Both the position numbers and the translations under genes were made by a program. The notes beneath the pieces are model-generated. The model was not told the DNA's origin, did no database searches, and saw nothing but the letters and a program-made list of their open reading frames with translations. Positions 1 through 62,976 of a stretch of DNA of 64,000 nucleotides are shown here, piece by piece (within the stretch, counting starts at the first letter, position 1; every line of letters starts with the position of its first letter). The DNA lies in NCBI RefSeq assembly GCF_000971195.1, contig NZ_BBLZ01000002.1:310001-374000 (forward strand), written 5' to 3'. The DNA is from Demequina soli (lineage in GTDB: Bacteria > Actinomycetota > Actinomycetes > Actinomycetales > Demequinaceae).

Positions 1-1445
1 ACCATGCCGTCCGCGAGCCCGAGCTCGACCATCATCGTGCCGAAGTAGCTGACGTCCTGGACGCGGTCGCGCGCCGCCTCGAGGGTCGCGCCCTTGTGCT
101 TGCGCATCTCGTAGTAGTCGTGCGCGAAGCGCTCGACGTGCTCGGGGTCGGACGGGGAGATGATGGTCGCGGCCTCGAGGTCCAGGCCCAGCTCCGCGGC
201 ACGGGCGCGGATCGCGCTCTCGTTGCCCAGGATGATCAGCTCGACGACGTCGCGGGTGAGCAGGGACGATGCGGCGCGCAGGATGCGGTCGTCGCCGCCC
301 TCGGGGAGGACGATGCGCTGCTTGCGCGAGCGGGCGCGGTCGAGCAGGCCGTACTCGAACATGAGCGGCGTGATGACGTCCGTGCGGGCGACGTCGAGCA
401 CGCCGCGCAGGCGGTCGGCGGCCACGAACTGGTCGAACATGGCCAGCGCGGTGTCGACCTTGAGCTGGCTCTCGCGTGACAGGCGGCCGCGCGTGGTGGA
501 GCAGCGGCGCGCGGTCTCGAACGTGTCGAGCTCGGTGCGCACCACGGGCAGCGGCGAGCCGAGGCCCTCGACCAGGCGGCGGATGGACGAGCGGGGCTCG
601 AGGCCGCCGGTGAGGATCACGCCCGACAGGGACGGGAAGCCCTCGGCGCCGTGCGCGGCCAGGAGGGCGAGCATCGTGTCCGAGCGGTCGCCGGGGACGA
701 TCACGACGGAGCCATCCTCGAGGCGGTCGAGGAGGTTCGACGTGGTCATCGCGCCGACGATGATGCCGCGCGTCTCGCGCGCCAGGAGCGCCGGGTCGCC
801 GGTGATGAGGGTGCCGTCGATCGCGTCGACGAGCTGGTTCATCGAGGGGGCGATGAGCAGCGGGTCCTCGGGCAGGACGCCCAGGCGCAGCTCCTCGGGC
901 AGCAGCGCGGCGATCGCGTCGACGTCCTCGGGGGCGCAGCGGTTGACGAAGATGCCGGCGACGCTCGCGTGCGAGCCCGACAGCTCGAGGCGCGCCTGGT
1001 CGATGACCTGGGCGACCTCGCCGGGGGTGCGCTCGCTGCCGTGCACCACGAGCACGACGGGCGCGCCGAGGTTCGCGGCGATGCGCCCGTTGAACTCGAG
1101 CTCCGCGGCGGCGGACACGTCGGTGTAGTCGGTGCCGACGATGACGACGGCGTCGCACTGCCGCTCGACCTCGTGGAAGCGCGACACGATGGTGGACAGC
1201 GCCTTCTCGGGGTCGGCGTGGACGTCCTCGTAGGTGACGCCGATCGCCTCCTCGTAGGACAGGTCGATGCTGTCGTGTCCGAGCAGGAGCTCCAGGACGT
1301 AGTCGGATCCGTCGGCGACGCGGGCGACCGGGCGGAAGATCCCGACCCGTCCTACCTGCTTCGCGAGGAGATTGGTGATGCCGAGGGCGATGGTGGACTT
1401 GCCGGTGTCGCCTTCGGCAGATGCGATATAGATGCTTCGTGCCAC
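1..1445 (-). CDS. pta: Phosphate acetyltransferase, N-terminal part (cut by window edge)
   Basis: Reading the minus strand from GTG at 1445 gives a protein beginning ARSIYIASAEGDTGKST, a BioD-like P-loop ATPase segment. A DRTGG-type middle domain follows, then the start of the catalytic phosphotransacetylase domain (FEYGLLDRARSRKQRIVLPEGGDD broken across about residues 375-400). Long actinobacterial Pta proteins of about 700 residues have this order; about 480 residues are visible. The enzyme interconverts acetyl-CoA and acetyl phosphate in the cytoplasm. The start is chosen because the conserved P-loop region begins right after it; no good ribosome binding site is visible. No ackA is in view; it would lie beyond the left edge if the usual pta-ackA order holds. 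Two copies of the dispersed 10-mer lie in the gene. Confidence 0.9.
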   Translation of the reverse strand, partial: MARSIYIASAEGDTGKSTIALGITNLLAKQVGRVGIFRPVARVADGSDYVLELLLGHDSIDLSYEEAIGVTYEDVHADPEKALSTIVSRFHEVERQCDAVVIVGTDYTDVSAAAELEFNGRIAANLGAPVVLVVHGSERTPGEVAQVIDQARLELSGSHASVAGIFVNRCAPEDVDAIAALLPEELRLGVLPEDPLLIAPSMNQLVDAIDGTLITGDPALLARETRGIIVGAMTTSNLLDRLEDGSVVIVPGDRSDTMLALLAAHGAEGFPSLSGVILTGGLEPRSSIRRLVEGLGSPLPVVRTELDTFETARRCSTTRGRLSRESQLKVDTALAMFDQFVAADRLRGVLDVARTDVITPLMFEYGLLDRARSRKQRIVLPEGGDDRILRAASSLLTRDVVELIILGNESAIRARAAELGLDLEAATIISPSDPEHVERFAHDYYEMRKHKGATLEAARDRVQDVSYFGTMMVELGLADGM

Positions 1446-1629
1446 GGGCCTATGGTTTCACGATCTCGTAGGACCCACCTGGTCGAAGGTCCCGACCGGC
1501 TTGTGCGACAGTGCGGACGTCCCCCGGGTAGCAGGTTTCCAGCGACGATGCGTAGGCTGGGCGAGCGGTGACGCTGAGGGACGGGCCGTCCCGCCCCTCG
1601 CGCGCCCGCACGCACCTGAGGGAGGGGCG

Positions 1630-2799
1630 ATGGCAGCGGACGGATCCGACGAGCGGCTCACGCGCGTCGCTGCGCTGCTGTCCGGATTCTTCGAGCGCAG
1701 CGCCGGCGGGCTGACCGGGCCGGAGGGCGCCGCCGCGGGCACCGTCCGCACCTTCGCGCTCGTGTCGATCGGCACCACCCTCGGGTTCACGGCGCGCTAC
1801 CTCGGCTACCCGGGCATCCTCGAGGGGCCGATGCCGTGGTTCAGCGCCGGCACGCTGCTCGCCTTCATCGCGGTGCTCGTCCTGGTGCGCGCGGGCCGCC
1901 AGCTCGCGGGCGCCGCCGTCTACCTCGCGGCGGCCACGATCGGCATGATCGACATGGCGTTCGTGCTCGGGTGGGGCTCGGGCCACCACCTGTACCTCAT
2001 CACCTCGGCGCAGCTCGTGTTCCTCATGTTCACCGACCGGCAGCGCGCGTGGCGGTGGCTGTTCGTCGTGCTGTCCGCCGTCGCGTTCCTCGTCGCCCAG
2101 CTCGGCGCGCCGGGCGTCGGCCCCTACGCGCGTCCCGACGAGCTCAGCGGCATCTTCGCGGCCAACGCCATCGGCACCGCGACGCTCATGTACATCCTGT
2201 CCGTGGTCGCCCACCACCGCGCCGGAACCGCCCGCGCCGAGGCCACCCGTCAGGCGGAGCGGGCCGAGTACCTGGCCAACACGGACCCGCTCACGGGCCT
2301 CGCGAACCGGCGTCCCGTGACGGCGCGGCTCGAGCAGCTCGCCGCCGCGGACGGCGCCACCTACTGCGTCGCGATCGCCGACCTCGACCGCTTCAAGCAG
2401 CTCAACGACGTCCACGGCCACGCGTGCGGCGACCGCGTGCTCGCGGCGCTCGGCGACCGCCTGCGCGGCCAGGTGCGCGTGACCGACCTGCTGGGCAGGT
2501 GGGGCGGCGAGGAGTTCATCGTCGTGCTCGCGGGGACATCGCTGCCCGACGCAGCCGTCATGATGGAGCGCATGAGAAGGATCGTCGGAGACCACCCGAT
2601 CGAGTGCGGCGACCACGCGCACGCGGTCACGGTGTCGGTGGGCGTCGCTGACGGCGTCGCCGACCGCATGAGCCACCGCGTGGTCAAGCGCGCGGACGAC
2701 GCGCTGTACGACGCGAAGCTCGCGGGTCGCGACCGCGTGCAGCTGCGTCCGCTGGGCGAGCCGGGCGCACCGCGCCCGACCGCGCGGCCCGCCCGGTGA
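1630..2799 (+). CDS. Membrane-bound GGDEF diguanylate cyclase
   Basis: A 389-residue protein: an N-terminal region with five or six hydrophobic segments (about residues 35-200), then a GGDEF domain (about 220-375). The active-site loop reads GGEEF at residues 292-296. An inhibitory-site RxxD (RVTD) sits five residues before it, so the domain should be catalytically active and feedback-inhibited by c-di-GMP. No EAL domain is fused. The N-terminal membrane part is probably the sensor, but its signal is unknown. ATG at 1630 is chosen over in-frame upstream codons because GGAGGGG precedes it closely. The stop overlaps the GTG of the SURF1 gene, suggesting cotranscription. Confidence 0.87.
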   Translation: MAADGSDERLTRVAALLSGFFERSAGGLTGPEGAAAGTVRTFALVSIGTTLGFTARYLGYPGILEGPMPWFSAGTLLAFIAVLVLVRAGRQLAGAAVYLAAATIGMIDMAFVLGWGSGHHLYLITSAQLVFLMFTDRQRAWRWLFVVLSAVAFLVAQLGAPGVGPYARPDELSGIFAANAIGTATLMYILSVVAHHRAGTARAEATRQAERAEYLANTDPLTGLANRRPVTARLEQLAAADGATYCVAIADLDRFKQLNDVHGHACGDRVLAALGDRLRGQVRVTDLLGRWGGEEFIVVLAGTSLPDAAVMMERMRRIVGDHPIECGDHAHAVTVSVGVADGVADRMSHRVVKRADDALYDAKLAGRDRVQLRPLGEPGAPRPTARPAR

Positions 2800-3578
2800 C
2801 GGCGGCCACGCGCGGCCGCATCCTGTGGGGCCGCATCCTCGTCGCCGTGCTCATCGCCGCCGTCGCGGTGGTCGCCTGCGGCGCCCTCGGCTGGTGGCAG
2901 TGGGGTCGCGCGGAGACCACCGGCCGCACCGTGCAGCCCGACCCCGCCGTGCCGCTCGCCGACGTGCTGCGCCCCGCGGAGAGTGCCGGCCTCGCGATCG
3001 GGCGCCAGGTGACGGTGAGCGGTACCTGGGCGGACGTCGAGGCCGCGGTCGTCACGGGCCGCGAGGTCGACGGCACGCCCGCGGAGATGCTCGTGCGCGC
3101 GCTCACCGTCCCCGCCGAGCAGACCGGCACCGGCGAGCCCGCGACGCTCGCGGTGGTGGTCGGCTGGCGTGCCGACGGCGACGCCGTCGGCGTGGACGAT
3201 GCGCCGGGGACCGAGGCGACCGTCGAGGGCTACCTGCGGGCGCCCGAGGCGTCCACCGCATCGTCCACCCCCGACCAGGCGCCCGCGGACGGCACGTTCT
3301 GGACCACCGCGATGGCGACGTCGGAGCTCGCGCAGCACTGGCCGTCGCCGCTCTACAGCGCGCTGCTGGTGTCCTACGACGGGTCCGCGAGCTGGACCGC
3401 TCTCGAGCCGCTGCCGCCCACCACGGAGATCAACTTCCGCTCGGGCGCGTACGCCATCGAGTGGTGGGTGTTCGGGGCGTTCGCCCTGTTCATCACCGCG
3501 CGCTGGATACGGGACAATGGACGCGCGCACCCGGAGACCCCGGACGGTGCGCACGCAACCGGAGAGGACCACGCGTGA
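2796..3578 (+). CDS. SURF1 family protein
   Basis: A 260-residue membrane protein with the SURF1 layout: an N-terminal helix (about residues 12-33) followed by the family motif GWWQWGRAE, a large extracytoplasmic region, the [12 protein letters not shown] motif and a C-terminal helix. SURF1 proteins assist assembly of haem-copper (aa3-type) cytochrome c oxidase. The GTG start at 2796 overlaps the upstream stop (GTGA). The stop again overlaps the start of the DUF3817 gene, so the three following genes look translationally coupled. In actinobacteria SURF1 next to DUF3817 and guaA is a recurring arrangement (from memory). No unusual residues were noticed. Confidence 0.88.
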
Positions 3579-5559: not shown

Positions 5560-5910
5560 TCAGGCGTCCTTGCGGTCCTCCGGCTCGATCACCTCGGTGT
5601 CCGCCGTCTGCTCGGCGGGCATCTCGACCGTGGCGGAGAGGTCCTCGTCCGCCGGCGCATCGTCCAGCGGCTCGCTCACCGTGAAGGCGGCCCGCTCCTT
5701 GCGCGACTGGCGCGACGCGGCCGCGACGGCCGAGGCGAGCAGCCAGCCGCCCAGCACCGCGAGCGCGACGATCGCGAGCAGCTGCAGGTCGACGTCGTAG
5801 CCCGACAGCGCGGCGATCGCGAACGCGCCGCCCGCGGTGACGATGCCACCCCAGATGAGGCCGGTGACGCGCTCGGCGGCGCCGCGGCGGGGACGGATCT
5901 CGGCGCTCAC
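5560..5910 (-). CDS. Small two-helix membrane protein, partner of PspC
   Basis: A 116-residue protein with two hydrophobic helices (about residues 17-35 and 40-60) and an acidic, Glu/Asp-rich tail. I do not recognise a named family. The GTG start at 5910 overlaps the stop of the PspC-domain gene (GTGA), so it is translated from the same message. Small membrane proteins commonly follow actinobacterial PspC genes, so a role in the same envelope-stress response is plausible but unproven. The gene converges on guaA with the hairpin at 5499-5542 between them. Confidence 0.75.
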   Translation of the reverse strand: MSAEIRPRRGAAERVTGLIWGGIVTAGGAFAIAALSGYDVDLQLLAIVALAVLGGWLLASAVAAASRQSRKERAAFTVSEPLDDAPADEDLSATVEMPAEQTADTEVIEPEDRKDA

Positions 5911-7484
5911 GGCGCCACCTCCTCGATGACGATGACCGAGTAGCCCTCGGCCGGGTTGGATGAGTCCAGCGTGAGCAGCGGGTCGCCGGCGTTCGCGACC
6001 TTGAGGCCCGTGGAGCCGTCGACATCGCACGCGATGCGGCGGTCGGCGAAGTAGACGCTCGCCGAGGTGCCCGACGCGGCGGCGACCTCGACGGAGGCGC
6101 CGACGGGCACCCGGACCGTGGTGTAGCCCGCCGACAGGGTGTCGGTGACGGACTGCTCGAGCGGCACCTCGGACACGAGGCCGCGGGACTGTCCCTCGCT
6201 CGACGGCACCTCGGAGGTCTCGTAGCAGTAGGCCGGCAGGGTGACGGTGGAGTAGTCGGCCTCGAACGCGGTGAGCGGGTCGAACGTGGCGGTCGCGGTC
6301 GGTGCGGGCACCGGCGCCGCGCTCGCGACACCGTTGCCGGATCCGTCGATCTGCGCGTGCACGCCGTTCGCGTCGACGGTGATGTCGGGCAGGTAGCGGT
6401 CCGCCCAGCCGTCGCGCATGCGGTCGGCGTCGCCGATGAGCACGAGCGTCGGGACGAGCAGCACCGCCGACACGAAGCCGAGGAAGCCGAGCCTGCGGCC
6501 GCTCAGCGCGACCAGCATGAGGATCACGCCCAGCCCGGTCACGAAGCCCACGAACCACGCGATCATCGGGTGCACTCCCAGGCGGTCCTGCCATGCGGCC
6601 CACACGGTGCCGGCGGCGGACAGCACCAGCCAGGCGAGCGTCGCGAGCCAGAACGGGGCGCCCGGGCCGGGCACACGCGGGGGTCGCGGGGGGCGCGGGG
6701 CCGCCGGCGGAGGTGCGACGGGGGACGATGCGGCGGGCGGCGGCGTCGTGCCCGTGGGCTGGGCGGGTGCGGGCGCGGCATAGCCGGCCGACGCGTACGC
6801 GGCGGCGGACGCCTGCTCGGCGGCCGCGTTGGCCTGGTTGACCGCGTCGTCCACCGCGGACACGACGCTCGCGGCCTGGTAGGAGCGCTGGTGGTGGCGT
6901 GCTGCGGCGCGCTGGGCGCGGCGGTCGGCCGCCCAGACCGGAGGGACGGCGTAGACGGGGGGCTCGCCCGGCGGCTGCGCGGCCTGGTCACGGTTGCGGC
7001 GGGTCATCATCACGATGAAGAAGATGACGCCGCCCACCAGGACGATCGGCACGACGATCATGAACATGATCGCCGCGAGGCGGAAGATGCCGCCGCCCGC
7101 GCCGTCGTTCCAGATGGTGTTCGCCGACCAGCCCCACGGTCCGCCGCGGTCGCCCAGCCCGATGAGGCCGAGGACGCCGAAGATGCCGATGCCGACGAGC
7201 GCGCCGACGTTCGGCATGCCGCGCCCGAAGTCCTGCGCGACGATCCTGCCGTGGCGGTCGGGCAGGAGCGCCCACGCCGCGCCATACGCGAGCAGGACGA
7301 TCCCGTTGAGGAACACCGCGAGCGCGACCACGCCGACGCGCGTCCAGGCGCGCGACCAGCCGAGACGCTCGGCGACGCCGCCGACGACGCCGCTGAGGAC
7401 GCGGGCATCGGAGCGGGTGATGCCCCATCCGCGGATGGTGGTGAAGAACCCTGCCTCGGTCGGCGGGGTCTGCTGCTGGGTCAT
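5907..7484 (-). CDS. PspC domain membrane protein
   Basis: A 525-residue membrane protein. Residues about 20-75 form a PspC domain (RSDARVLSGVVGGVAERLGW, then a hydrophobic helix and WALLPD). Further helix pairs follow, then a Pro/Ala-rich linker (about 200-270), more helices, and a C-terminal extracytoplasmic domain of about 200 residues. This is the long actinobacterial PspC architecture, usually next to a sensor kinase with which it responds to envelope stress. The ATG at 7484 has GGAGAGA upstream. It is divergent from the histidine kinase gene; the 153-bp spacer contains one copy of the dispersed 10-mer at 7583. Confidence 0.85.
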   Translation of the reverse strand: MTQQQTPPTEAGFFTTIRGWGITRSDARVLSGVVGGVAERLGWSRAWTRVGVVALAVFLNGIVLLAYGAAWALLPDRHGRIVAQDFGRGMPNVGALVGIGIFGVLGLIGLGDRGGPWGWSANTIWNDGAGGGIFRLAAIMFMIVVPIVLVGGVIFFIVMMTRRNRDQAAQPPGEPPVYAVPPVWAADRRAQRAAARHHQRSYQAASVVSAVDDAVNQANAAAEQASAAAYASAGYAAPAPAQPTGTTPPPAASSPVAPPPAAPRPPRPPRVPGPGAPFWLATLAWLVLSAAGTVWAAWQDRLGVHPMIAWFVGFVTGLGVILMLVALSGRRLGFLGFVSAVLLVPTLVLIGDADRMRDGWADRYLPDITVDANGVHAQIDGSGNGVASAAPVPAPTATATFDPLTAFEADYSTVTLPAYCYETSEVPSSEGQSRGLVSEVPLEQSVTDTLSAGYTTVRVPVGASVEVAAASGTSASVYFADRRIACDVDGSTGLKVANAGDPLLTLDSSNPAEGYSVIVIEEVAP

Positions 7485-7637
7485 GGTCTCTCCTTGCGAG
7501 TCTTCCTCGAGTCTCGCGCCGCGGCGCGGGGCCCCGCTATGAGGGGACACCCTGATTCGGACCCTGATCCCGGGGCGCCCCGCGCATCGTCCGGCAGGCC
7601 GAGGAACGGTGCGCCGCGGCTGTGCGAAGGTGGTGCC

Positions 7638-9405: not shown

Positions 9406-10095
9406 CTACCGGAACAGCGACACCGCCCGCGCGATCACCAGGGCCAGCAGCACGAAGCCCGAGAACGCCTGCAGCCCCATGAGCGCCTTCGCGCGGCCCG
9501 ACAGCGGGATCGAGTCCGACGCGGAGAACGCCATCGAGTTCGACAGCGACGTGTAGAGGTAGTCGCCGAAGCGCGGCAGCCAGCCCGCGTGACGGGACGA
9601 TGCGGCGGCCACCTCGTCGATCGCGTCGTGGTCCTCGTCCTGGGCGAAGCGGAGGTCGGCCGCGGGCAGGTCGGCGCGGTCGCGGGCGCGACGCACGACG
9701 GGTCCTCCCCGGTCGAGCTCCCACAGCACCAGCGCGAACGCGATGACGTTGGTGAGCCACACCTGGGCGGCCGAGAGCAGGATGCGCGAGCCCGATCCGG
9801 CGGTGGGCTGGGTCAGGGACAGGATCAGCTCGACGAGCATCACCTGGTTCGCGCCGGCGAGCAGCAGCGCCTGCGCGACCGACAGGCCGCGGGTCCACGG
9901 CGTCTGGCGGTGCAGGCGCACGGGGTTGACCACGAGCAGCGGGATCAGGAGCACCAGCCCGATCCCGACGACCGTGTAGCGGAGCGCGGGCAGGAAGGTC
10001 GAGGGCAGCGCCAGGTACATGGCCAACGCGACCAGCAGGGCCGCCACCGCGGGCCAGCGGTGCTCGCCGCGGCCGCCCTCGGGAATCGCCGTCAT
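9406..10095 (-). CDS. Multi-helix membrane protein, DUF1345-like
   Basis: A 229-residue protein with about six hydrophobic helices. Its C-terminal block (DYLYTSLSNSMAFSASD, then a final helix ending ARAVSLF) resembles the DUF1345 and two-helix ion-channel-like pattern, in which a Tyr-rich loop precedes the last pair of helices. Function is unknown; a channel role is possible but unsupported. ATG at 10095 is used; an in-frame GTG 15 bases upstream is an alternative start. It converges with the two-component operon and diverges from the DEAD-box helicase gene. One copy of the dispersed 10-mer encodes an Ala-Ser-Ser stretch in the loop. Confidence 0.65.
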   Translation of the reverse strand: MTAIPEGGRGEHRWPAVAALLVALAMYLALPSTFLPALRYTVVGIGLVLLIPLLVVNPVRLHRQTPWTRGLSVAQALLLAGANQVMLVELILSLTQPTAGSGSRILLSAAQVWLTNVIAFALVLWELDRGGPVVRRARDRADLPAADLRFAQDEDHDAIDEVAAASSRHAGWLPRFGDYLYTSLSNSMAFSASDSIPLSGRAKALMGLQAFSGFVLLALVIARAVSLFR

Positions 10096-10328
10096 GGGGT
10101 GATCATGCACCCGCCTGGTAGTCTTGGCGGTACTTGCGGGGACGACACCGTCCCCCCTGCGTCGCAGATTGCTTCCGCTTCTCGCCAGCGCCCGGTCCGA
10201 CCGGCAGCGCGGCTCGTAGAAATTCTCTTCGGCGAACGAGAGCGGACACCTCCGCCTTCGCCACCACCGCCGGTGCGATCGCCCCCTGGGCGCCGCGCGC
10301 ATCGTCCCCTGCCATGAAAGGCACCACC

Positions 10329-11900: not shown

Positions 11901-12623
11901 ATGGGGGGCGAAGAGGCTGAGGGGCCGACGCGCGCGATGGTGCACGCCGACGAGGTCGCCATGCCCGCGGAGCAGGGCTTCGTGGGCAGGCGGGCGCGTC
12001 GGAGCCGCGCGCACGAGTACTGGAGCGCGCGGCCGTGGGCCGTGCGCGAGGAGGAGCGGGCCGCGCTGCCGACGCCGCGGCCGGTGCCGACGATCACCCC
12101 GCTGCCGCAGCGGTCGGAGCCCGTCGGGACCACCGCCGCGGGCCTGCCGATGCGCGTCGCCCCCGGGCTCGCGCAGCCCGTCGAGGACGACGGCGTGATC
12201 CAGCTGCCGCGCTCCTCGGGCGAGGTCCCGACGGTGCGCCTCGAGCCCGTGCCCGACCCGGTCCCGTCCGTGTGGCCGGCGCCGATCGCGGCCGACGTCC
12301 CCGAGCCCGGGGACGATGCGCCGCTCGAGCAGGCGGCCGACGCACCCGCCGCCGAGGCAGGCGACGTCGACGAGGCGCTCGAGATGCTCGTCGAGCTCGC
12401 GCCGCACCTCGAGTGCCTGGCGAGCGCGGCTGATGCCGCCGCGCGCGTCACCTACGCGCGATGCCAGGGCATGCTCGCGCGCATGGGTCGGGCCGTGAGC
12501 GACCGGCGGGTGTGGCGTGCCCTCCTGGCCCTGTGCGACGCCGACCCGGATCCCGAGGTGCGCGCGGAGGCCGACGCGGCGCTCATCGCGCTCGAGCAGC
12601 ACGGCACGGTGCCGCGAGCCTGA
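11901..12623 (+). CDS. Hypothetical Pro/Ala-rich protein with helical C-terminus
   Basis: A 240-residue protein I cannot assign to a family. The first 75 residues are basic (VGRRARRSRAHEYW), followed by a Pro/Val-rich low-complexity stretch. The last 80 residues are predicted helical (EALEMLVELAPHL, RRVWRALLALCDADPDPEVR) and look like one or two HEAT-type repeats. No signal peptide or membrane helix is seen. ATG at 11901 is chosen because it lies 7 nt after a -10-like TACCCT. Third-position GC is high in this frame, supporting real coding. It stands alone between a helicase gene and pcrA. One 10-mer copy encodes Asp-Asp-Ala. Confidence 0.55.
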   Translation: MGGEEAEGPTRAMVHADEVAMPAEQGFVGRRARRSRAHEYWSARPWAVREEERAALPTPRPVPTITPLPQRSEPVGTTAAGLPMRVAPGLAQPVEDDGVIQLPRSSGEVPTVRLEPVPDPVPSVWPAPIAADVPEPGDDAPLEQAADAPAAEAGDVDEALEMLVELAPHLECLASAADAAARVTYARCQGMLARMGRAVSDRRVWRALLALCDADPDPEVRAEADAALIALEQHGTVPRA

Positions 12624-12836: not shown

Positions 12837-15467
12837 ATGGATGCGCTCTTCGATCTCGACGGCACGGTCCCCTCCGAGCCGCAGCCCCGCACGCCCGCCG
12901 CCCCCGAGGCGGCCGCCCCGGCGACCGCGCCCGCGCCGGAGCCCGACGCGTGGGCAGGCGGCCCCGAGCCGGAGGAGTGGGGCGAGCCCGCTCCGGAGGA
13001 CTACGAACCCGAGCCGGGGCACCACGACATGCCCCAGGACGCCTGGATCCCGCCGGCCCCGATCCTCGCCGGACACCGCCCGTCCCAAGCGGCCCCGGCG
13101 GCGAACCGCCCGGCGCGCGGCGCATCGTCCCTGGTGGAGGGCCTCAACCCGCCGCAGGCCGAGGCCGTGCTGCACCAGGGTGAGGCCCTGCTCATCATGG
13201 CGGGCGCCGGCTCCGGCAAGACCCGCGTGCTCACCCACCGCATCGCGCACCTGCTCGAGGCCGGCCGCGCGCGCCCCCACCAGATCCTCGCGATCACGTT
13301 CACCAACAAGGCCGCGGCGGAGATGCGCGAGCGCGTCGAGGCGCTCGTGGGCCCCGAGGCACGCGGCATGTGGGTCGCGACGTTCCACAGCGCGTGCGTG
13401 CGCATCCTGCGCGCGGACCACCAGAAGGCGGGCCTGAGCTCGAGCTTCTCGATCTACGACACGTCGGACTCGGTCAACCTCATGAAGCTCGTCATGAAGG
13501 AGCTGAACCTCGACCCCAAGAAGTTCACGCCGAAGGCGATCCTGGGGCGCATCGGCAAGTTCAAGGACGAGCTGATCGACCCCGAGGTCGCGCTCGCGGG
13601 CGCGTCGATGGCCAGCAAGTTCAGCATCGAGCATGCCGCCGCGACCGCCTACCCGCTGTACCAGCGCCGCCTCGAGGCGGCCAACGCGGTCGACTTCGAC
13701 GACATCATCGTGAAGACCGTCGGCCTGCTCCAGCATCACCCCGAGGTGGCGCGCGACTACCGCGAGCGGTTCCGCCACATCCTGGTCGACGAGTACCAGG
13801 ACACCAACCACGCGCAGTACGTGCTGGTGCGCGAGCTCGTGGGCCCCGCCGACGACGCGAGCCTGCCCGCCGGCGAGCTCACCGTCGTGGGTGACGCGGA
13901 CCAGTCGATCTACGCGTTCCGCGGCGCGACCATCCGCAACATCATGGAGTTCGAGAAGGACTACCCGAACGCGCACATCGTGCGCCTCGAGCAGAACTAC
14001 CGCTCCACCCAGAACATCCTCACCGCCGCCAACACGGTCATCCAGAACAACTCGGACCGCCGGCCCAAGAACCTGTGGACCGACTCGGGCGCCGGCGAGA
14101 AGATCAAGGGCTACGCCGCGGACACCGAGCAGGGCGAGGCGCAGTACATCGGCACGGAGATCCGCCGCCTCATCGACGAGGACGGCATCGAGCCCAACGA
14201 CATCGCGATCATGTACCGCGCCAACGCGCAGTCCCGCGCCGTCGAGGAGCGCTTCATCCGCGCCGAGATCCCCTACAAGGTGGTCGGCGGCACGCGCTTC
14301 TACGAGCGCAAGGAGATCAAGGACATGCTCGCGTACCTCGCCGCCGTGGTGAACGAGGACGACGACGTAGCCACCCGCCGCATCATCAACGAGCCCAAGC
14401 GCGGCATCGGCGACACCGCCGTCGAGTCCGTCGAGGGCGTGCGCCGGAGTCTGGTGGCGGCCGGCGAGGAGGCCAGCTTCGGCACCGCGCTACGGCGCCT
14501 GGACGATGCGGGGCTTCAGGCCCGCTCACAGCGCGCCATCGAGGACTTCGTGCGGCTCATGGACGACCTGCGCGCCCTCGCGAAGGACAACGGCCCCGCC
14601 GGCGTGCTCGACGCGATCGCCGACCGCAGCGGCCTGCTCGCCTCGCTCCGGAAGAGCGAGGACCCGCAGGACGCGAGCCGGATCGAGAACATCATGGAGC
14701 TCGTCGCGGTGGGCCGCGAGTTCTCCGAGGACAACCCCGAGGGCACGCTCGCGGACTTCCTCGAGAAGGTTGCGCTGGTCGCGGACGCCGACCAGGTGCC
14801 GGACGCTGACGGCACGGGCGGCGTCGTCACGATGATGACCCTCCACACCGCCAAGGGGCTCGAGTTCCCCGTCGTGTTCCTCACTGGCATGGAGGACGGC
14901 ACGTTCCCGCACATGCGGTCGATCGAGTCGGGCAACACCAAGGACATGGAGGAGGAGCGGCGCCTCGCCTACGTGGGCCTCACCCGCGCCCGCGAGCGGC
15001 TCTACCTCACGCGTGCAGAGGCCCGCTCGAGCTGGGGAGCGCCCCAGTACTTCGGGGCGTCGCGCTTCGTCGAGGAGATCCCCGCCGAGCTCATGGAGTG
15101 GACCCGCGCGGCGACGTCGATGGCGTCCCTGCGCGCGGCCTCCGACCGGGGCTCGTCGCGCTCGGGCGCGTGGTCGGGCATGGGCTACGGCTCGGGCGGC
15201 GGCTACGGCGGCAACCAGGATCGCGCCGACGGCAACACGTACTCGCGGGCCGGGGCCGTCTCGACGCGCCGCGTGCCGCCCAGCCCGCCGGGCGCGGGCG
15301 CGGGCGACGTGGGCTTCGAGGTCGGCGAGCGCGTGCTGCACGACAAGTTCGGCATGGGCAAGGTGGTCGGCACCGAGGGCGTGGGCCGCAACGCGGTCGT
15401 CAAGGTCGACTTCGGCGGCGACGTCAAGCGCCTGGTGCTGCGCTTCAACAGCCTCGACAAGCTGTAG
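12837..15467 (+). CDS. pcrA: ATP-dependent DNA helicase PcrA/UvrD
   Basis: An 876-residue superfamily 1 helicase that unwinds DNA during repair and displaces RecA or RNA polymerase. After a Pro/Ala/Glu-rich extension (about residues 1-95), the core starts at LNPPQAEAV with Walker A AGAGSGKT, VDEYQDTN, GDADQSIYAFRGA, EQNYRST, MTLHTAKGLEF and GLTRARERLYLTRA. The C-terminal 45 residues form the Tudor-like tail of PcrA (FEVGERVLHDKFGMGKV ... RFNSLDKL). Its last 19 codons and stop lie inside a 66-bp sequence repeated at 23185-23250, so the 3' end is the junction of the Rhs island. The reading frame is intact. Confidence 0.95.
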   Translation: MDALFDLDGTVPSEPQPRTPAAPEAAAPATAPAPEPDAWAGGPEPEEWGEPAPEDYEPEPGHHDMPQDAWIPPAPILAGHRPSQAAPAANRPARGASSLVEGLNPPQAEAVLHQGEALLIMAGAGSGKTRVLTHRIAHLLEAGRARPHQILAITFTNKAAAEMRERVEALVGPEARGMWVATFHSACVRILRADHQKAGLSSSFSIYDTSDSVNLMKLVMKELNLDPKKFTPKAILGRIGKFKDELIDPEVALAGASMASKFSIEHAAATAYPLYQRRLEAANAVDFDDIIVKTVGLLQHHPEVARDYRERFRHILVDEYQDTNHAQYVLVRELVGPADDASLPAGELTVVGDADQSIYAFRGATIRNIMEFEKDYPNAHIVRLEQNYRSTQNILTAANTVIQNNSDRRPKNLWTDSGAGEKIKGYAADTEQGEAQYIGTEIRRLIDEDGIEPNDIAIMYRANAQSRAVEERFIRAEIPYKVVGGTRFYERKEIKDMLAYLAAVVNEDDDVATRRIINEPKRGIGDTAVESVEGVRRSLVAAGEEASFGTALRRLDDAGLQARSQRAIEDFVRLMDDLRALAKDNGPAGVLDAIADRSGLLASLRKSEDPQDASRIENIMELVAVGREFSEDNPEGTLADFLEKVALVADADQVPDADGTGGVVTMMTLHTAKGLEFPVVFLTGMEDGTFPHMRSIESGNTKDMEEERRLAYVGLTRARERLYLTRAEARSSWGAPQYFGASRFVEEIPAELMEWTRAATSMASLRAASDRGSSRSGAWSGMGYGSGGGYGGNQDRADGNTYSRAGAVSTRRVPPSPPGAGAGDVGFEVGERVLHDKFGMGKVVGTEGVGRNAVVKVDFGGDVKRLVLRFNSLDKL

Positions 15468-23253: not shown

Positions 23254-23280
23254 CGTTCCCCCAGGCAGTCAGGGGGGACG

Positions 23281-23892
23281 ATGCGCTGGTGGGCTCTGGG
23301 CGGGATCGCCACGGCGGTGCTGGTCGCGGTCCTCGCGGTGCCCTGGGTGCCGGCGGACGCGGCCACCACGGTGCCGGTCGAGCGCTCCTGGACGCTGGCC
23401 GACGAGGAGTCGGGGCACTGCGTCGACGTCGGGCTCTCCACCGCCCTCGAGGGGACCGAGCGGCGCCCCGTCATAGCTGCGCTGCCGTGGAGGGCGTGGA
23501 CCGACACCTCGCTCGCGGGCGACACCGTCGCAAGCGTGCGCCCCGGCACGGGCTGCGACGGCAGCGGTGAGCTCACCTCGCTGAACGCCGGGATCGTGGT
23601 GGGTGACGCCACGTGCGGCGAGTGGGACTTCGCGGCGCCCACCATGAGCGACACGCTCGCCGAGACCACCTTCGGGTGCGACAGCTCGTCGCTGCGTCTC
23701 GACGTCGGCAACCTCAACCCCGCAGGCATGGAGTCGCACCAGGAGGCCGACCCGTGGTGGGGCCTGGGGCGCGACGGCTGCGTCGAGGTCATCGCGTGGG
23801 CCGAGTTCACCTGGAGGGAGGGCGAGAGCGCGCACGCGAGCGGCGCGGGCGTCCCCGAGCCCGAGCTGTTCTGCCTGTCCGACGCCGCGTGA
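23281..23892 (+). CDS. Secreted hypothetical protein with paired cysteines
   Basis: A 203-residue protein with a clear signal peptide (MRWWALGGIATAVLVAVLAV, cleavage near ADAA). The mature part contains six Cys, which suggests disulfide bonds, and short Trp-rich segments (GEWDF, ADPWWGLG). I do not recognise a family. ATG at 23281 is preceded by AGGGGGG as ribosome binding site. The start codon itself is part of a copy of the dispersed 10-mer (23276-23285). A -10-like TAGCGT lies at 23251 just outside the island. It is the first native gene after the Rhs island and was probably the original neighbour of pcrA. Confidence 0.7.
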   Translation: MRWWALGGIATAVLVAVLAVPWVPADAATTVPVERSWTLADEESGHCVDVGLSTALEGTERRPVIAALPWRAWTDTSLAGDTVASVRPGTGCDGSGELTSLNAGIVVGDATCGEWDFAAPTMSDTLAETTFGCDSSSLRLDVGNLNPAGMESHQEADPWWGLGRDGCVEVIAWAEFTWREGESAHASGAGVPEPELFCLSDAA

Positions 23893-46950: not shown

Positions 46951-46999
46951 GGACGATGCGCGGGCGAGGCCGCGCGCGGACGCGGGCCGTGCATCGTCC
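46951..46999. repeat. Inverted pair of the dispersed motif after the GNAT gene
   Basis: GGACGATGCGC (46951-46961) pairs with GTGCATCGTCC (46989-46999) with one mismatch around a GC-rich 27-nt loop. It lies 15 bp after the GNAT stop and just before the glyA promoter, so it could terminate GNAT transcription. Confidence 0.65.
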
Positions 47000-50260: not shown

Positions 50261-50293
50261 GACGCATCGTCCCTGGTGAGGGGACGATGCGTC
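50261..50293. terminator. Bidirectional hairpin of two motif copies between xthA and galK
   Basis: GACGCATCGTCCC (50261-50273) pairs perfectly with GGGACGATGCGTC (50281-50293) around a 7-nt loop. It fills the entire gap between the convergent stops, and the right arm enters the galK stop codon. Confidence 0.85.
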
Positions 50294-51591: not shown

Positions 51592-52134
51592 ATGACCAGC
51601 GAGCCCGCACCGCAGCCCGAGCCCGAACCGGAGGGGGCCGCCGCGCCCGACCACGCTCCCGCGCCCGACCCCGCCGCCGCATCGTCCCCGCCGCCGTCCG
51701 TGCTCGAGCGCGTGCGGCGCAACCGCGTCGGGGCGCTCGCCGCCGGCCTGCTCGTCGCGCTCGCGGCCGGGCTGCTCCTCGCGATCCTGGTGCCGACGGA
51801 CCCGAACCTGCTCGCGCTCACCCTGCTGGGGGCGCTGCTGACCGCGGCCGTGGGGTTCACGGTGCGCGAGCTGTCGCCGCGACGCGGGCTGCTGGACCAG
51901 GGTGCGGCGTTCGTCGCGACCGTCATGGGCGTGCACGTGATGGCGGTCACCGGGACCCTCGACGGCATCGGGGGAGGGCTCGCCAAGCAGGTGCTGTCGA
52001 TGATCGGCGCGACCGGTCCGGGCTACGACGACGCGCTGCTCGCCTCGCTGGCCTCGCCCGCGTTCTCGACGGGCGGGATCCTGTGCGGGCTCGCCGCCGC
52101 GATCATCGTCGGCTGGGGTCCGCGGCGGCCCTGA
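51592..52134 (+). CDS. Hypothetical membrane protein
   Basis: A 180-residue protein: a Pro/Ala/Glu-rich cytoplasmic N-terminus of about 45 residues, then four hydrophobic helices. There are no recognisable motifs. GAGGAGG before ATG 51592 is a good ribosome binding site. It is divergent from galK (73-bp spacer). A 10-mer copy encodes Ala-Ser-Ser in the low-complexity region. I cannot suggest a function. Confidence 0.65.
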   Translation: MTSEPAPQPEPEPEGAAAPDHAPAPDPAAASSPPPSVLERVRRNRVGALAAGLLVALAAGLLLAILVPTDPNLLALTLLGALLTAAVGFTVRELSPRRGLLDQGAAFVATVMGVHVMAVTGTLDGIGGGLAKQVLSMIGATGPGYDDALLASLASPAFSTGGILCGLAAAIIVGWGPRRP

Positions 52135-53505: not shown

Positions 53506-53566
53506 GGGGTCAATCGTAGGCGGTGCGGCACGCCCCCCCGACGCGGCCCGGGGACGATGCGCGGGC

Positions 53567-54103: not shown

Positions 54104-55403
54104 GGACGCCTCCCTTCGCGGTGTCGGGCTCGGACTCGGTCTCGTCCTCCTCCATGTGCTCGCGCCAGTCGCTCGGCAGCAGGTGGTCCAGGACGTCGTC
54201 GATCGAGATCGCGCCCACGAGGCGGTGCTCGTCGTTGACGACGGGCAGCGCGAGGATGTCGTACGCCGCCATGCGTCGCGCGACGACGGACAGGTGGTCG
54301 CCCGGGTGCAGGGGGGCGATCGCCGGGTCCACGAAGGACCCGATGGACTCGTGCGGGGGCTCGCGCAGCAGCCGCTGGATGTGGACCAGCCCGATGTACC
54401 GGCCGGTCGGCGTCTCGAGCGGCGGGCGCACCACGAACACCATCGAGGCGAGCGCGGGCGCGAGCTCGTTCTTGCGCACGAGCGCGAGGCACGTGGCGAC
54501 GGTGGTCTCGGGGCCCACGATGACGGGCTCCGTGGTCATGAGGCCGCCCGCGGAGTTGTCGTCGTAGCCGAGCAGCTGCTCGACGTTGCGCGCGTCCTCG
54601 GGCTCCATGAGCTCGAGCAGGGCCTGCGCCTGGGGCGCGGGCAGGTCGCCCAGGAGGTCCGCCGCATCGTCCGGATCCATCGCCTCGAGCACGTCCGCCG
54701 CGCGCTCCGACTGGAGCGTCGACAGGAGGACGATCTGGTCCTCCTCGGGCATCTCCTCGAGCACGTCGGCGAGGCGCTCGTCGTCCAACGCGGCGGCGAT
54801 CTCCGCGGAGCGCGACGGGCTCATCTCCATGAGCGCGGCCGCGAGGTCGGCGGGCTTGTGGTCCTCGAACGCCTCGATGACCAGCGACGCGCCCTGGTTC
54901 TTGTCGCGCACGGACAGGCCGGTGACCTGGTCGACGTCGACCACCACGGCCTCGCCGCGGCGCGAGAAGCCGAGCACGCCCTTGCGGCGCTCGCCCTTGC
55001 GCACGTACAGCTTGGTGAACCGCCAGGTCCGGGTGCGGTCCTGCTCGATCGCGATGTCCTCGATGTACGCCGTGGACTTGTCCTCCTTGAGGCGCACCGA
55101 GCGCTCGAACAGCTCCGCGATCGCGAGCGACTCGCCCGTGCGCGCCTTGAAGCGGCGCAGGTTCACGACGCCCGTGCAGATCACCTGTCCGGGGCTGATG
55201 GAGGTCACGCGGGTGAGGGGCATGAAGACGCGCCTGCGGCCCGGGACCTCGACCACCAGCCCCACCGCGGTGGGAGGCGTCCCACCGGTGCGGCGGATCA
55301 CGACGACGACGTCGCGGACGCGCCCCACCGTGTCGCCGATGGGGTCGAAGACGGGGGTGCCCGCGAGGCGCGCGATGTAGACGCGGTCGACTCCGGTGCT
55401 CAT
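54096..55403 (-). CDS. Soluble MgtE N-domain / CBS-pair protein
   Basis: A 435-residue protein without membrane helices. PRC-barrel-like segments fill residues about 1-175 (GTPVFDPIGDTVGRV, RRKGVLGFSRRGEA). An MgtE intracellular N domain follows (about 185-275, Glu/Asp-rich repeats such as DPDDAADLLGDLP), then two CBS domains (about 280-410, TTEPVIVGPETTVATCL and ALPVVNDEHRLVGAISIDD). It resembles the cytosolic gate of the magnesium channel MgtE but lacks the transmembrane pore, so it is probably a magnesium or nucleotide sensor acting on a partner; DUF1003 next door is a candidate. One 10-mer copy encodes Asp-Asp-Ala. Confidence 0.87.
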   Translation of the reverse strand: MSTGVDRVYIARLAGTPVFDPIGDTVGRVRDVVVVIRRTGGTPPTAVGLVVEVPGRRRVFMPLTRVTSISPGQVICTGVVNLRRFKARTGESLAIAELFERSVRLKEDKSTAYIEDIAIEQDRTRTWRFTKLYVRKGERRKGVLGFSRRGEAVVVDVDQVTGLSVRDKNQGASLVIEAFEDHKPADLAAALMEMSPSRSAEIAAALDDERLADVLEEMPEEDQIVLLSTLQSERAADVLEAMDPDDAADLLGDLPAPQAQALLELMEPEDARNVEQLLGYDDNSAGGLMTTEPVIVGPETTVATCLALVRKNELAPALASMVFVVRPPLETPTGRYIGLVHIQRLLREPPHESIGSFVDPAIAPLHPGDHLSVVARRMAAYDILALPVVNDEHRLVGAISIDDVLDHLLPSDWREHMEEDETESEPDTAKGGVHG

Positions 55404-55459
55404 GGGGCAAGAGTAGTCCCGGGCGGGCGTCCCTCCTGGGAGGTGGGACGATGCGCGGC

Positions 55460-56878
55460 TCAGTCGCGCACGGCCGCCCAGCAGGCGACGATCGCCGCGG
55501 CGCTCACGTCGACGTCGTCCCTGGTGGTCGCCTGGTCGGAGACGGAGATGCGCATCGCGCGGCGGCCCTTCCACGTCGAGGCGCCGGCCCACATCGTCCC
55601 GTCGCGCTGGACCGCGTCGATCACCGCGTCCGTGGTGGCCGCGTCGCCGAACGCGACCAGCACCTGGTTGAGCGCGACCGGCGCCAGGATCTCCGCGCCG
55701 GCCGCCTCGAGGCGCTCCGCGAACCGGCGGGCGTGCGCGCACGTCCGGTCGATCAGCTCCGCCACCCCGTCGCGCCCGTTCGCGGCGAGCATCGCCCACG
55801 TCTCGATGCCGCGCGCCCGCTGCGACATCTGGAGCCCGAGCTGCATGAGCGGGCGCGCGTCGCCGCTCGCGACGTACGCCGCCTGCATCGCGGTCGCCCG
55901 CTCGAGGTCCGCGCGCTCGCGCACGATCGCGACGCCCGAGTCGTACGGCACGTTGAGCTGCTTGTGCGCGTCCGTGCCCCACGAGTCGGCGAGCTCGACG
56001 CCCGCGACCTGCTCGCGCAGCGCCGGCGACGCGGCCGCCCACAGCCCGAACGCGCCGTCGACGTGGACCCAGCCCCCCGCATCGTGCACCCGCGGGATGA
56101 TCCCGGCGAAGTCATCCGAGGCGCCCGTGTTGACGTTGCCCGCCTGGAGGATCACCAGGGTGAGCGCATCCGTGTCGTCGGGGAACGCCTCCACGCGGAC
56201 GGCGCCGCGCGCGTCCGTCGGGACCGTCTCGACGCGTCCGACGCCGAGCCCCGCGAGGCGCAGCGCCTTGAGGATCGACACGTGCGCCTCCTCACCGGTG
56301 ACCACGCGGATCGGGGGCGCGCCGAAGAGCCCGCGCTCGTGGACGTCCCAGCCCGCCCGGGCGAGGAGCGCGTCGCGCGCGACGAGGATCCCCGTGAGGT
56401 TCGCGAGCGTCGCGCCGGGCGTGAAGGTGGCCGTCGCATCGTGCGGCAGGCCCAGGAGGTCGACCACCCAGCCGGCCGCGACCTCGTCGAGCACCGATGC
56501 GACCGGAGAGCCCACCGGCAGCGAGGGGTTCTGGTCCCACTGGCCGGCGAGGACGGCAGCGGCCGCGGCGGCGTTGTCGACGCCGCCGTTGACGAACCCG
56601 AAGAACCTGCCCTGCGCCTGCGCGACGGTCGCGGGCGAGCCGAACGCGTCGAGCTCCGCGAGGACCTCGCGCGCGTCGATACGTCCGTCCTGGAGCGGGC
56701 GGCGGAAGACGTCCAGCGCGGCGACCGCGTCGGGTCCCGGCGCGACGGGACGATGCGCCGCACCGGCGAGGTACGAGCCCGCCCGTCGCGCGGCCTCGGT
56801 GACGAGCGAGATGCGCTCCCGGGTCGCGGCCAGCGCGCGGGGGCTCGTGAGGGCGGGGGTGAGGTCGACGGTGCTCAT
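55460..56878 (-). CDS. PLP-dependent group II decarboxylase-like enzyme
   Basis: A 472-residue fold-type I PLP enzyme related to aromatic-amino-acid, glutamate and aspartate decarboxylases. Motifs are GRFFGFVNGG near residue 90, DQNPSLPVGSPVASVLD, TPGATLANLTGI, GGWVHVDGAFGLWA and the PLP Lys in DAHKQLNVPYDSG. The substrate cannot be told. It is divergent from a MocR regulator whose likely operator lies between them, so it is probably the regulator's main target and may act in vitamin B6 or amino-acid metabolism. ATG at 56878 starts the conserved sequence. Confidence 0.82.
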   Translation of the reverse strand: MSTVDLTPALTSPRALAATRERISLVTEAARRAGSYLAGAAHRPVAPGPDAVAALDVFRRPLQDGRIDAREVLAELDAFGSPATVAQAQGRFFGFVNGGVDNAAAAAAVLAGQWDQNPSLPVGSPVASVLDEVAAGWVVDLLGLPHDATATFTPGATLANLTGILVARDALLARAGWDVHERGLFGAPPIRVVTGEEAHVSILKALRLAGLGVGRVETVPTDARGAVRVEAFPDDTDALTLVILQAGNVNTGASDDFAGIIPRVHDAGGWVHVDGAFGLWAAASPALREQVAGVELADSWGTDAHKQLNVPYDSGVAIVRERADLERATAMQAAYVASGDARPLMQLGLQMSQRARGIETWAMLAANGRDGVAELIDRTCAHARRFAERLEAAGAEILAPVALNQVLVAFGDAATTDAVIDAVQRDGTMWAGASTWKGRRAMRISVSDQATTRDDVDVSAAAIVACWAAVRD

Positions 56879-59427: not shown

Positions 59428-59539
59428 GCGGGGTCCTTCGATGGTGGTGCGGGGGTCCGGGGTCTCAACGCCGGGAAGTGGCACCCTATGCCCGCGCGCG
59501 TGGGGGCGCGTCTTGCCAGGGACGATGCGCGCGTCCCGG

Positions 59540-60132: not shown

Positions 60133-60324
60133 CTAGTCGATCGCGACGGGGTAGTACGTCCCCAGCATCGCCATGAGCGGGGACGCGAGGTGCGTCTCGC
60201 ACGACGACGCGGCCGGGTCGGCCGAGTCCGAGCACGATCCTACGGACATCACCGGCGCGAGCACGAGGAAGGCGGCGAGGGCCCACAGGCCCCACCGCAT
60301 CGTCCGCCGTCGGAGGTCGCTCAC
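60133..60324 (-). CDS. Small membrane or secreted protein (63 residues)
   Basis: A short ORF with a basic N-terminus, one hydrophobic stretch (WGLWALAAFLVLAPVMSVGS) that could be a signal peptide or helix, then two Cys and a polar tail. GTG 60324 or an internal ATG at 60300 could start it. There is no recognised family. Coding is plausible from codon bias and its fit between neighbours, but it is unproven. A dispersed 10-mer overlaps the ATG. Confidence 0.4.
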   Translation of the reverse strand: MSDLRRRTMRWGLWALAAFLVLAPVMSVGSCSDSADPAASSCETHLASPLMAMLGTYYPVAID

Positions 60325-61803: not shown

Positions 61804-61838
61804 GGACGATGCGACGCATCGGTTCCGGCGCATCGTCC
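61804..61838. repeat. Inverted motif pair between divergent pepP and PHP genes
   Basis: GGACGATGCG (61804-61813) and CGCATCGTCC (61829-61838) are a perfect inverted pair; GATGCGACGCATC inside is a smaller palindrome. Because both neighbours start here, it cannot be a terminator for either. Confidence 0.75.
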
Positions 61839-61862: not shown

Positions 61863-62687
61863 GTGCGCATCGACCTCCACACCCACTCGAACGTGTCCGA
61901 CGGCACCGGCCGGCCCGCGCAGGTGATGCGAGAGGCCGCAGCGGCGGGTCTCGACGTGGTCGCGCTCACCGACCACGACTCCGTCGACGGCTGGGAGGAG
62001 GCGTCCGCCGAGGCGGCGCGGCTCGGCCTCGCCTTCGTGCCGGGAATCGAGGTCTCCGCGCGGGACGGCTGGGTGTCGATCCACATGCTCGCGTACTGGC
62101 CGCGCCCGGACGATGCGCCGCTCGCCGGGATCCTCGCCCTCACCCGGGACGCGCGGATCGGGCGGGCGCAGGAGATGGTGGAGCGGATCGCCGTCGAGTT
62201 CCCGCTCGAGTGGGAGGACGTGGTCGCACAGGCGGGGTCCGCGTCGACCGTCGGGCGCCCGCACATCGCGGACGCGCTGGTCGAGCGCGGCCACTTCGCG
62301 ACCCGCACCGAGGTGTTCGACGAGATCCTGCACAACGGCTCCCGCTTCTACGTGCACCATCACGCACCCGAGGTGCACGACGCGGTGCGCGCGATCCGCG
62401 CCGCAGGCGGCGTGCCCGTGTTCGCGCATCCGGGGGCGCACGCGCGGGGCCGGGTGGTGCCGGACTCGGTGATCGCGTCGCTGGCGGAGGCCGGCCTGGC
62501 GGGCCTCGAGGTGGACCACCGTGACCACGACCCGACCCAGGTGGAGCGGCTCGCCGCGCTCGCGGACCGGTACGGGCTGATCCGCACCGGGTCCTCGGAC
62601 TACCACGGCACCGGGAAGCTCAACATGTTGGGGGAGCGGACCACGTCCGTCGAGTCCTACGAGGCGCTGCTGGCTCAGCGGGGGTAG
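61863..62687 (+). CDS. PHP domain phosphoesterase
   Basis: A 274-residue metal-dependent hydrolase of the YciV/RNase AM type. The four PHP motifs are visible: DLHTHSNVSDG, ALTDHDSVDGW, PGIEVS and later HP in FAHPGAH, HRDH and SSDYHG. Relatives hydrolyse 3',5'-bisphosphonucleotides (pAp) or trim RNA 5' ends; the substrate here is inferred from family only. GTG at 61863 follows GATACT by 6 nt, a leaderless arrangement. One 10-mer copy encodes Asp-Asp-Ala. Confidence 0.88.
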   Translation: MRIDLHTHSNVSDGTGRPAQVMREAAAAGLDVVALTDHDSVDGWEEASAEAARLGLAFVPGIEVSARDGWVSIHMLAYWPRPDDAPLAGILALTRDARIGRAQEMVERIAVEFPLEWEDVVAQAGSASTVGRPHIADALVERGHFATRTEVFDEILHNGSRFYVHHHAPEVHDAVRAIRAAGGVPVFAHPGAHARGRVVPDSVIASLAEAGLAGLEVDHRDHDPTQVERLAALADRYGLIRTGSSDYHGTGKLNMLGERTTSVESYEALLAQRG

Positions 62688-62699: not shown

Positions 62700-62705
62700 T
62701 ATGAT
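62700..62705 (+). promoter_or_regulatory. -10 element TATGAT, leaderless start of S4 gene
   Basis: TATGAT, close to the consensus, ends 6 nt before GTG 62712. Confidence 0.5.
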
Positions 62706-62711
62706 GCCCGG

Positions 62712-62939
62712 GTGAACGCATCCGCCCCCCGCCACGACGTCCCGATCTCGGGTGACGTCATCCGCCTCGGCCAGTTCCTGCAGCTCGCGGGGCTCACGGA
62801 CACCGGCGGCGAGGCGAAGGAGGTCATCGCCGACGGCCTCGTCACCGTCAACGGCGAGGTCGACGTGCGTCGCGGTCGCCAGCTCCACGTCGGCGACGTG
62901 GTCGAGCTCGACGGCCGCGAGGCGCGCGTCTCCGACTAG
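62712..62939 (+). CDS. Small S4-domain RNA-binding protein
   Basis: A 75-residue protein consisting of one S4 domain (about residues 17-72): RLGQFLQLAGLTDTGGEAKE, VTVNGEVDVRRGRQL and VGDVVELDG. It resembles YbcJ/RqcP-like stand-alone S4 proteins that bind structured RNA or the ribosome. GTG at 62712 lies 6 nt after TATGAT. Its target is unknown. Confidence 0.85.
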   Translation: MNASAPRHDVPISGDVIRLGQFLQLAGLTDTGGEAKEVIADGLVTVNGEVDVRRGRQLHVGDVVELDGREARVSD

Positions 62940-62976
62940 CAACGCCCGTCGGCGGCGGCCCGGCGCATCGTCCTGC

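Follow-up and report, generated by a model that had tools for sequence, protein, structure and literature searches.

We describe a dispersed 10-nt word, GGACGATGCG, in a 64,000-nucleotide stretch of the actinobacterium Demequina soli (contig NZ_BBLZ01000002.1, positions 310,001 to 374,000; hereafter the window). The window contains 44 copies of the word, which is more frequent than any other 10-mer in the genome sample that we examined and is replaced in related genomes by one-base variants (dialects) that are grouped by clade. By analogy with the elements of Neisseriaceae and Pasteurellaceae, GGACGATGCG is probably one dialect, A-G (bases 3 and 10), of a DNA uptake sequence (DUS) used by Demequina in natural transformation.

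Results

Abundance of the motif

Copies of GGACGATGCG were found 26 times on the plus strand and 18 times on the minus strand, the first at 264-273 and the last at 62964-62973. An earlier sequence-only reading of the window had given the same span, with copies on both strands and in both genes and spacers, and the present counts agree: with a simple purpose-built gene caller, 26 copies fell within predicted genes, 16 between genes, and two at gene edges. Its estimate of about 41 copies vs. 0.3 expected was right as to the excess, and the exact figures are corrected to 44 and about 1. Dinucleotide shuffles of the window contained a mean of 1.07 copies (largest, 4), and 0 of 100 reached 44. The extended spacer form that it had described, GGGGACGATGCGCSG, does exist (seven copies vs. 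0.02 in shuffles). All copies listed here are exact matches to GGACGATGCG.

264..273, +, motif
308..317, +, motif
3194..3203, +, motif
3257..3266, -, motif
5656..5665, -, motif
6723..6732, +, motif
7583..7592, -, motif
9595..9604, +, motif
10298..10307, -, motif
12311..12320, +, motif, extended form
13121..13130, -, motif
14501..14510, +, motif
23276..23285, +, motif
23921..23930, -, motif, extended form
24938..24947, +, motif
26440..26449, -, motif
27225..27234, +, motif, extended form
28116..28125, -, motif
28635..28644, +, motif, extended form
30146..30155, +, motif
32569..32578, -, motif
33918..33927, +, motif, left arm of inverted pair
33939..33948, -, motif, right arm of inverted pair, extended form
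34647..34656, +, motif
35923..35932, +, motif
40151..40160, +, motif
40868..40877, -, motif
40928..40937, +, motif
43301..43310, +, motif
43647..43656, -, motif
46951..46960, +, motif, extended form
50263..50272, -, motif, left arm of inverted pair
50282..50291, +, motif, right arm of inverted pair
51678..51687, -, motif
53552..53561, +, motif, extended form
54663..54672, -, motif
55446..55455, +, motif
56748..56757, +, motif
59520..59529, +, motif
60296..60305, -, motif
61804..61813, +, motif, left arm of inverted pair
61829..61838, -, motif, right arm of inverted pair
62108..62117, +, motif
62964..62973, -, motif

The proposal that the word is a genome-wide signal was borne out. The whole genome (3,002,692 bases) contains 1,475 copies, balanced between the strands (754 forward and 721 reverse), or one per about 2 kb, and the reversed word occurs 3 + 0 times. 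Motif anatomy was studied in a 464-kb sample of the same genome (the window and stretches L057-L076) holding 242 copies. Of all 10-mers in this sample, GGACGATGCG had the highest count (242 vs. 6.0 expected from an order-3 Markov background), so its abundance is not that of an ordinary 10-mer. The order-5 expectation was 22.1, a background that already includes the motif's own hexamers.

Motif anatomy

In the 464-kb sample, the surplus of one-mismatch neighbors lay mainly at positions 1, 2, 3, and 10, and the core CGATGC was rigid; in a genome of the C-G dialect, the near-miss excess was at positions 1, 2, and 10. The intergenic consensus was longer, about GGGACGATGCGCGGG. Coding copies numbered 159 and intergenic or edge copies 83, corresponding to 0.38 vs. 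2.0 copies per kb and thus to an approximately fivefold higher density between genes, a split that rests on the same simple gene caller. Among the coding copies lying on the same strand as their gene, 86 of 89 were in a single frame, xxG GAC GAT GCG. The codon GAT represents only 6% of all Asp codons, yet GAC-GAT-GCG was used in 93 of 153 Asp-Asp-Ala runs (5.0 expected), preceded by a wobble G in 86 of the 93. Because this usage far exceeds the codon-usage expectation, it is the DNA, not the protein, that is kept.

Head-to-head (+-) pairs of copies within 60 bp were found 11 times in the sample, compared with about 1.9 expected, and -+ pairs were found twice. One of the +- pairs lies within a gene, one lies over a gene start, and the others lie between genes; all are stable when folded. 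The window contains three inverted pairs, none assigned to a strand.

33918..33948, inverted pair (+-), terminator-like hairpin, -30.4 kcal/mol when folded with its flanks
50263..50291, inverted pair (-+), where two predicted genes converge, between their ends, -28.4 kcal/mol
61804..61838, inverted pair (+-), where two divergent genes are predicted to start, -21.3 kcal/mol

The first pair begins 8 bp past the predicted stop (33909) of an Iso_dh-family gene, and the left arm of the third shares sequence with the first codons of the gene on the minus strand. On stretch L060, paired motifs form two tight, almost identical hairpins (at 15572 and 15749), 177 bp apart.

Dialects across Demequina

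When 44 Demequina genomes were searched with four words and each genome was classed by its commonest form, the dialects followed the formula GG[A/C]CGATGC[G/C], varying at base 3 (A or C) and base 10 (G or C). In 27 of the 44 genomes, one form reached 600 copies or more, so that the motif or a one-base dialect is abundant in sister genomes, a check that the sequence-only reading had suggested. These rich genomes comprised 15 with GGACGATGCG (A-G), six with GGCCGATGCG (C-G), five with GGCCGATGCC (C-C), and one with GGACGATGCC (A-C). The remaining genomes had 200-599 copies of their best form (nine genomes) or <200 copies of every form (eight genomes). Two forms were found together in G018 (927 A-G and 483 C-G) and in G031 (1,081 C-C and 669 C-G).

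For genomes with at least 600 copies, dialects follow phylogeny. A ComEC tree was built for 41 of the 44 genomes (without G011, G035, and G036), including 25 of the 27 rich ones. In this tree, the window's clade consisted of 12 A-G genomes and one A-C genome (support 1.0), the six strong C-G genomes formed one clade, and four strong C-C genomes were found in a third group with G005, G022, and G038, the last of which (352 C-G, 261 C-C) sits among C-C genomes. The A-G pair G021 and G028 was placed apart, adjoining low-motif genomes, and A-G thus occurs in two places. Identity of full-length SHMT to the window's protein grouped the same genomes (92-95% vs. ≤90% for others); the SHMT of G037, a 105-residue fragment, scored 94%. 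In a tree of the upstream genes AlaS, RuvX, YceG, and AroE, the support for the window's clade was only 0.14. Genomes with 200-599 copies were less orderly, the C-C ones being found at several places in the ComEC tree. In G023, the only strong A-C genome, neither PilB nor ComEC has an uninterrupted open frame, which could reflect sequencing errors.

Turnover of copies in relatives

Coding copies of the window's genome were compared with seven relatives. The alignment was ungapped in 116 of 120 judged cases, the same sites recurring across relatives (ungapped 20, 21, 17, 16, 16, 17, and 9; gapped 2, 1, 0, 0, 1, 0, and 0). Since the sites align without gaps, copies are gained and lost by substitution and not by insertion. 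Retention of the genome's own sites in relatives of the same dialect was 13 of 21 (P = 0.002) and 10 of 20 (P = 0.09), compared with a background of about 30%. In three C-dialect genomes, no own site was intact (0 of 18, 0 of 17, and 0 of 17, vs. 12-15% for like 10-mers), but the three comparisons share mostly the same sites and amount to about one test, with P near 0.1 by our arithmetic. In each of these three genomes, one own site is now that genome's own dialect word. The A-C genome G023 kept one of nine own sites, and five more retain the core.

Competence and pilus genes

ComEC was matched in 43 of the 44 genomes (with split frames in G011, G023, and G037), and the MshEN domain of PilB was found in all 44. 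The com and pil genes that the sequence-only reading had proposed to look for are present in the host. In its genome, ComEA (SLBB and HHH domains) adjoins ComEC, and a single run encodes PilB, a PilT-like ATPase, PilC, PilD, PilM, and three proteins with prepilin methylation motifs. Among the best 80 named loci matching its PilC, the first 13 were from Demequina, with D. maris nearest at 87% (records of the genome itself were possibly excluded). Stretch L061 (6222-10179) contains a possible Tad/Flp cluster in addition to the type IV pilus, with a T2SSE-family ATPase match and a TadE/F-like protein judged by eye and pattern only.

The pil operon was found in two types with different minor-pilin modules, and these are mixed within the window's clade (stretches L057 and L177-L216), pointing to exchange of the whole operon. 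The tree of the PilB/T/C core breaks up the same clade. This mismatch between pilus and clade suggests exchange of large segments by recombination within the clade, as competence would allow.

Candidate specificity factors

The pil operon is unlikely to set the dialect, since its two minor-pilin architectures split the window's clade and the PilB/T/C tree does not recover it. The dialect goes with the groups seen for ComEC and SHMT rather than with the pilus allele, and this would place the specificity factor elsewhere or on a conserved binding surface common to both pilus types.

An orphan type IV pilin of 138 aa with a conserved W-C...C head (G000 C9:219586-219999; L238 1483-1899, L241), encoded apart from the pil operon, was by its position a candidate ComP-like receptor. 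It is disfavored because its presence does not follow motif number. Thus, the A-G genomes G006, G014, and G042 had no orphan-pilin-like match outside the pil operon region (hit list read by eye), and the low-motif genomes G043, G026, G034, and G004 each had one. Two of its columns split nine A-G from four C-G species, a result equaled by 35 of 715 relabellings (about 5%, kinship ignored). In three further A-G species with a divergent orphan pilin, the A-G residue was missing in one of the two columns. The AlphaFold model (pLDDT 88) had no Foldseek match below E 0.001 and was uninformative.

Columns tracking the dialect were found in ComEC (9 of 534), PilB (1 of 551), and PilT (1 of 365), and none were found in PilC, PilD, and PilM. 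The comparison genes had two of 184 (HolA), two of 268 (AroE), and four of 364 (YceG). The rate in ComEC is slightly above that of the comparison genes, and we read its columns as phylogeny because low-motif relatives share the A-G residue in eight of the nine.

Occurrence beyond Demequina

The degenerate word GGMCGATGCS was searched for in 297 genomes of 94 genera of the order, the reversed word serving as a rough control only. The 23 Demequina genomes of this sample had 251 to 1,951 copies (the window's genome, 1,893 vs. 82 reversed). The highest count outside Demequina was 631, in a 9.4-Mb genome with 199 copies of the reversed control. In one family of the order (f20, mostly incomplete genomes), counts reached 591 vs. 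42 reversed, above those of the poorer Demequina, and 65 kb of DNA from seven of its genomes (L280-L284, L289, and L290) contained GACGATGCCG 12 times vs. 0.5 expected. From these counts, family f20 may carry a weaker related signal, in which case the system would extend beyond Demequina. Within the Demequina family, the one further genus sampled (G192) had 180 copies vs. 19 reversed. Pooled type IV pilus loci of Cellulomonas, Actinotalea, and Kineococcus/Kineosporia also yielded enriched words, but these came from orthologous DNA and are uninformative.

Motif-free DNA in the window

The 8.8-kb interval 14511-23275 contains no copy, compared with 6.0 expected, a suggestive gap (P about 0.002 at the mean rate, for an interval picked after the fact). 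It surrounds a gene at 15013-22326 (+) for a large protein with RHS repeats and, at its C terminus, a ribonuclease domain (PF00545), probably a polymorphic toxin; the GC content of this stretch is lower. In the genome sample, five gaps exceeded 6 kb, by our estimate no more than random spacing gives.

Discussion

Interpretation as an uptake sequence

Among the functions that the sequence-only reading had listed, uptake or self-recognition fits the anatomy of the motif, its dialects, and the machinery present. Most testable anatomical features match those of a DUS or of the uptake signal sequence (USS) of Pasteurellaceae; a role in uptake would follow from the anatomy by analogy, and the dialects and competence genes add weight to it. 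The competence machinery (type IV pilus with ComEA/ComEC) would include a surface DNA receptor that prefers double-stranded DNA carrying the word, and fragments with a copy would be taken up and recombined more often. Such a bias, acting on point mutations, could fill the genome over generations where copies are tolerated, namely in intergenic DNA, in hairpins close to the ends of genes, and in Asp-Asp-Ala codon runs. Changes in receptor specificity would then shift the dialect (A/C at base 3, G/C at base 10), limiting exchange between lineages.

Several observations weigh against uptake as the function. No sequence-specific receptor such as ComP convincingly tracks the dialect among the candidates examined: the head of the orphan pilin is acidic, residues tracking the dialect are absent from ComEA (0 of 181 columns) and PilA (0 of 73), and both pil operon type and orphan pilin vary within the window's clade while base 3 stays the same. 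The eight genomes with <200 copies of each form have the PilB domain in eight of eight cases and ComEC in seven of eight (in G037, the match is split between two frames), and the presence of the machinery, being equal in these genomes, does not by itself explain the motif. The distant A-G genome G021 kept only two of 17 own sites, and in eight relatives (60-120 kb each) opposite-facing pairs numbered seven vs. about 3.9 expected, a weak excess. Newly acquired segments of Pasteurellaceae are described as poor in USS (PMC7811141, PMC12616744). In the window, conserved genes had 20 copies in 42.9 kb (42 genes) and non-conserved genes five in 12.4 kb (eight genes), about equal, with four genes seen in one relative left out.

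Alternative explanations

A HIP1-like word or a methylation target, kept by a methyltransferase or by repair-linked mutation bias, would likewise be genome-wide, genic and intergenic, and turned over by substitution, and dialects could follow changes of methyltransferase target. We consider it unlikely. HIP1 (highly iterated palindrome) is a palindromic octamer, GCGATCGC; GGACGATGCG is not palindromic, GCGATCGC is not enriched (264 vs. 233.6 expected), and neither the hairpin pairs nor the fivefold intergenic excess is predicted.

Recombination signals of the Chi type and segregation signals of the KOPS type (FtsK orienting polar sequences) are read directionally by a translocating enzyme and are skewed to one strand along replichores. 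The sequence-only reading had named both, and their copy number is similar to the one per about 2 kb found here. Orientation showed no significant strand bias in a partial test on 364 kb of a single contig, C15 (108 + and 81 -; proportion 0.50-0.64, P = 0.058), in which no 40-kb bin exceeded about 65%. Coding copies were also divided between the same (89) and the opposite (70) strand of their genes. With strand bias missing from the part of the contig tested, and with hairpin pairs and one-base dialects left unexplained, such a signal seems quite improbable.

It is more doubtful still that GGACGATGCG is the binding site of a nucleoid protein, as the sequence-only reading had also suggested, or of a global regulatory protein. 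Every spacer class does contain 1.9-2.7 copies per kb, but divergent (promoter) spacers are not enriched (2.0 vs. 2.7 per kb in convergent ones), spacing between copies is near random (mean 1,700, SD 1,601, in the 464-kb sample), two-thirds of all copies (159 of 242) are genic and almost all same-strand ones share a frame, and the sharp, clade-grouped, one-base dialects would be left unexplained. Mobile or dispersed repeats, such as repetitive extragenic palindromic (REP) elements, which the inverted pairs resemble, or miniature inverted-repeat transposable elements, have a longer conserved body and spread as inserted copies, and are hardly credible here given ungapped sites in relatives and only slight conservation farther than about 5 bases from the motif in either flank, as is a peptide or codon effect given the overridden synonymous choice at Asp-Asp-Ala. 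Since flanks differ between copies beyond a few bases, one recent duplication does not account for them either.

Significance

If GGACGATGCG is an uptake sequence, an outer membrane is not required for self-DNA recognition to evolve, Demequina is predicted to be transformable given the right tag, and the genus offers a second comparative system for dialect switching, with natural variation among 44 sequenced species. The determinant of uptake specificity becomes a testable question through dialect swaps. In agreement with the sequence-only reading, which knew of no such element in this group, no publication on a Demequina uptake sequence or natural competence was found among the open papers searched (subscription papers and preprints being outside the scope). 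Of the papers listed by broader searches on uptake sequences, none reports such an element in an actinobacterium, judged by titles or abstract openings. Among the matches listed for four 10-mers in paper texts, titles concern aptamers and human, fungal, and enteropathogenic Escherichia coli (EPEC) host-response subjects.

Comparison with known systems

The DUS of Neisseriaceae, as described by Frye et al. (2013, PMC3630211), occurs in 943 to 5,918 copies per listed genome, has a fixed CTG core, and forms inverted pairs that mark terminators; its dialects are consistent with the core phylogeny, and one genome has two dialects. The Demequina motif resembles it in its length of about 10 bases, its abundance, its one-base dialects matching phylogeny with minor counts of neighbors' dialects, its fixed core with variable positions, its terminator-linked inverted pairs, and its genic and intergenic copies. 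In contrast, the neisserial word GCCGTCTGAA is unlike GGACGATGCG, Demequina, a high-GC actinobacterium in which uptake is presumed, lacks an outer membrane, and ComP, present in Neisseriaceae, has no counterpart identified among the Demequina candidates examined.

The USS of Pasteurellaceae (PMC7811141, PMC12616744) is similar in its origin by point mutation, its hundreds to thousands of copies, and its inverted pairs acting as terminators; its recognition is tied to type IV pili, the genes of which are also present in Demequina. Its sequence is different, and its hosts belong to another phylum. Micrococcus luteus, according to a review (PMC6370729), is an actinobacterium with ComEA/ComEC homologues, but its transformation system is of the Flp/Tad type, whereas Demequina has a PilB/T/C/D/M-type pilus operon.

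A 2020 article (PMC7811141) places strong uptake preference in species of two families, Pasteurellaceae and Neisseriaceae, both Gram-negative, and a 2025 article (PMC12040237) describes uptake in nearly all competent species besides Neisseria and Haemophilus as sequence-independent, calling specificity an outlier. An uptake tag in a Gram-positive would be surprising, such tags being known from these two families. We lean toward the view that Demequina represents a third independent origin of a DUS, the first in a Gram-positive (monoderm) lineage, which has radiated across the genus into at least four dialects on two positions and has a specificity factor outside the pilus operon.

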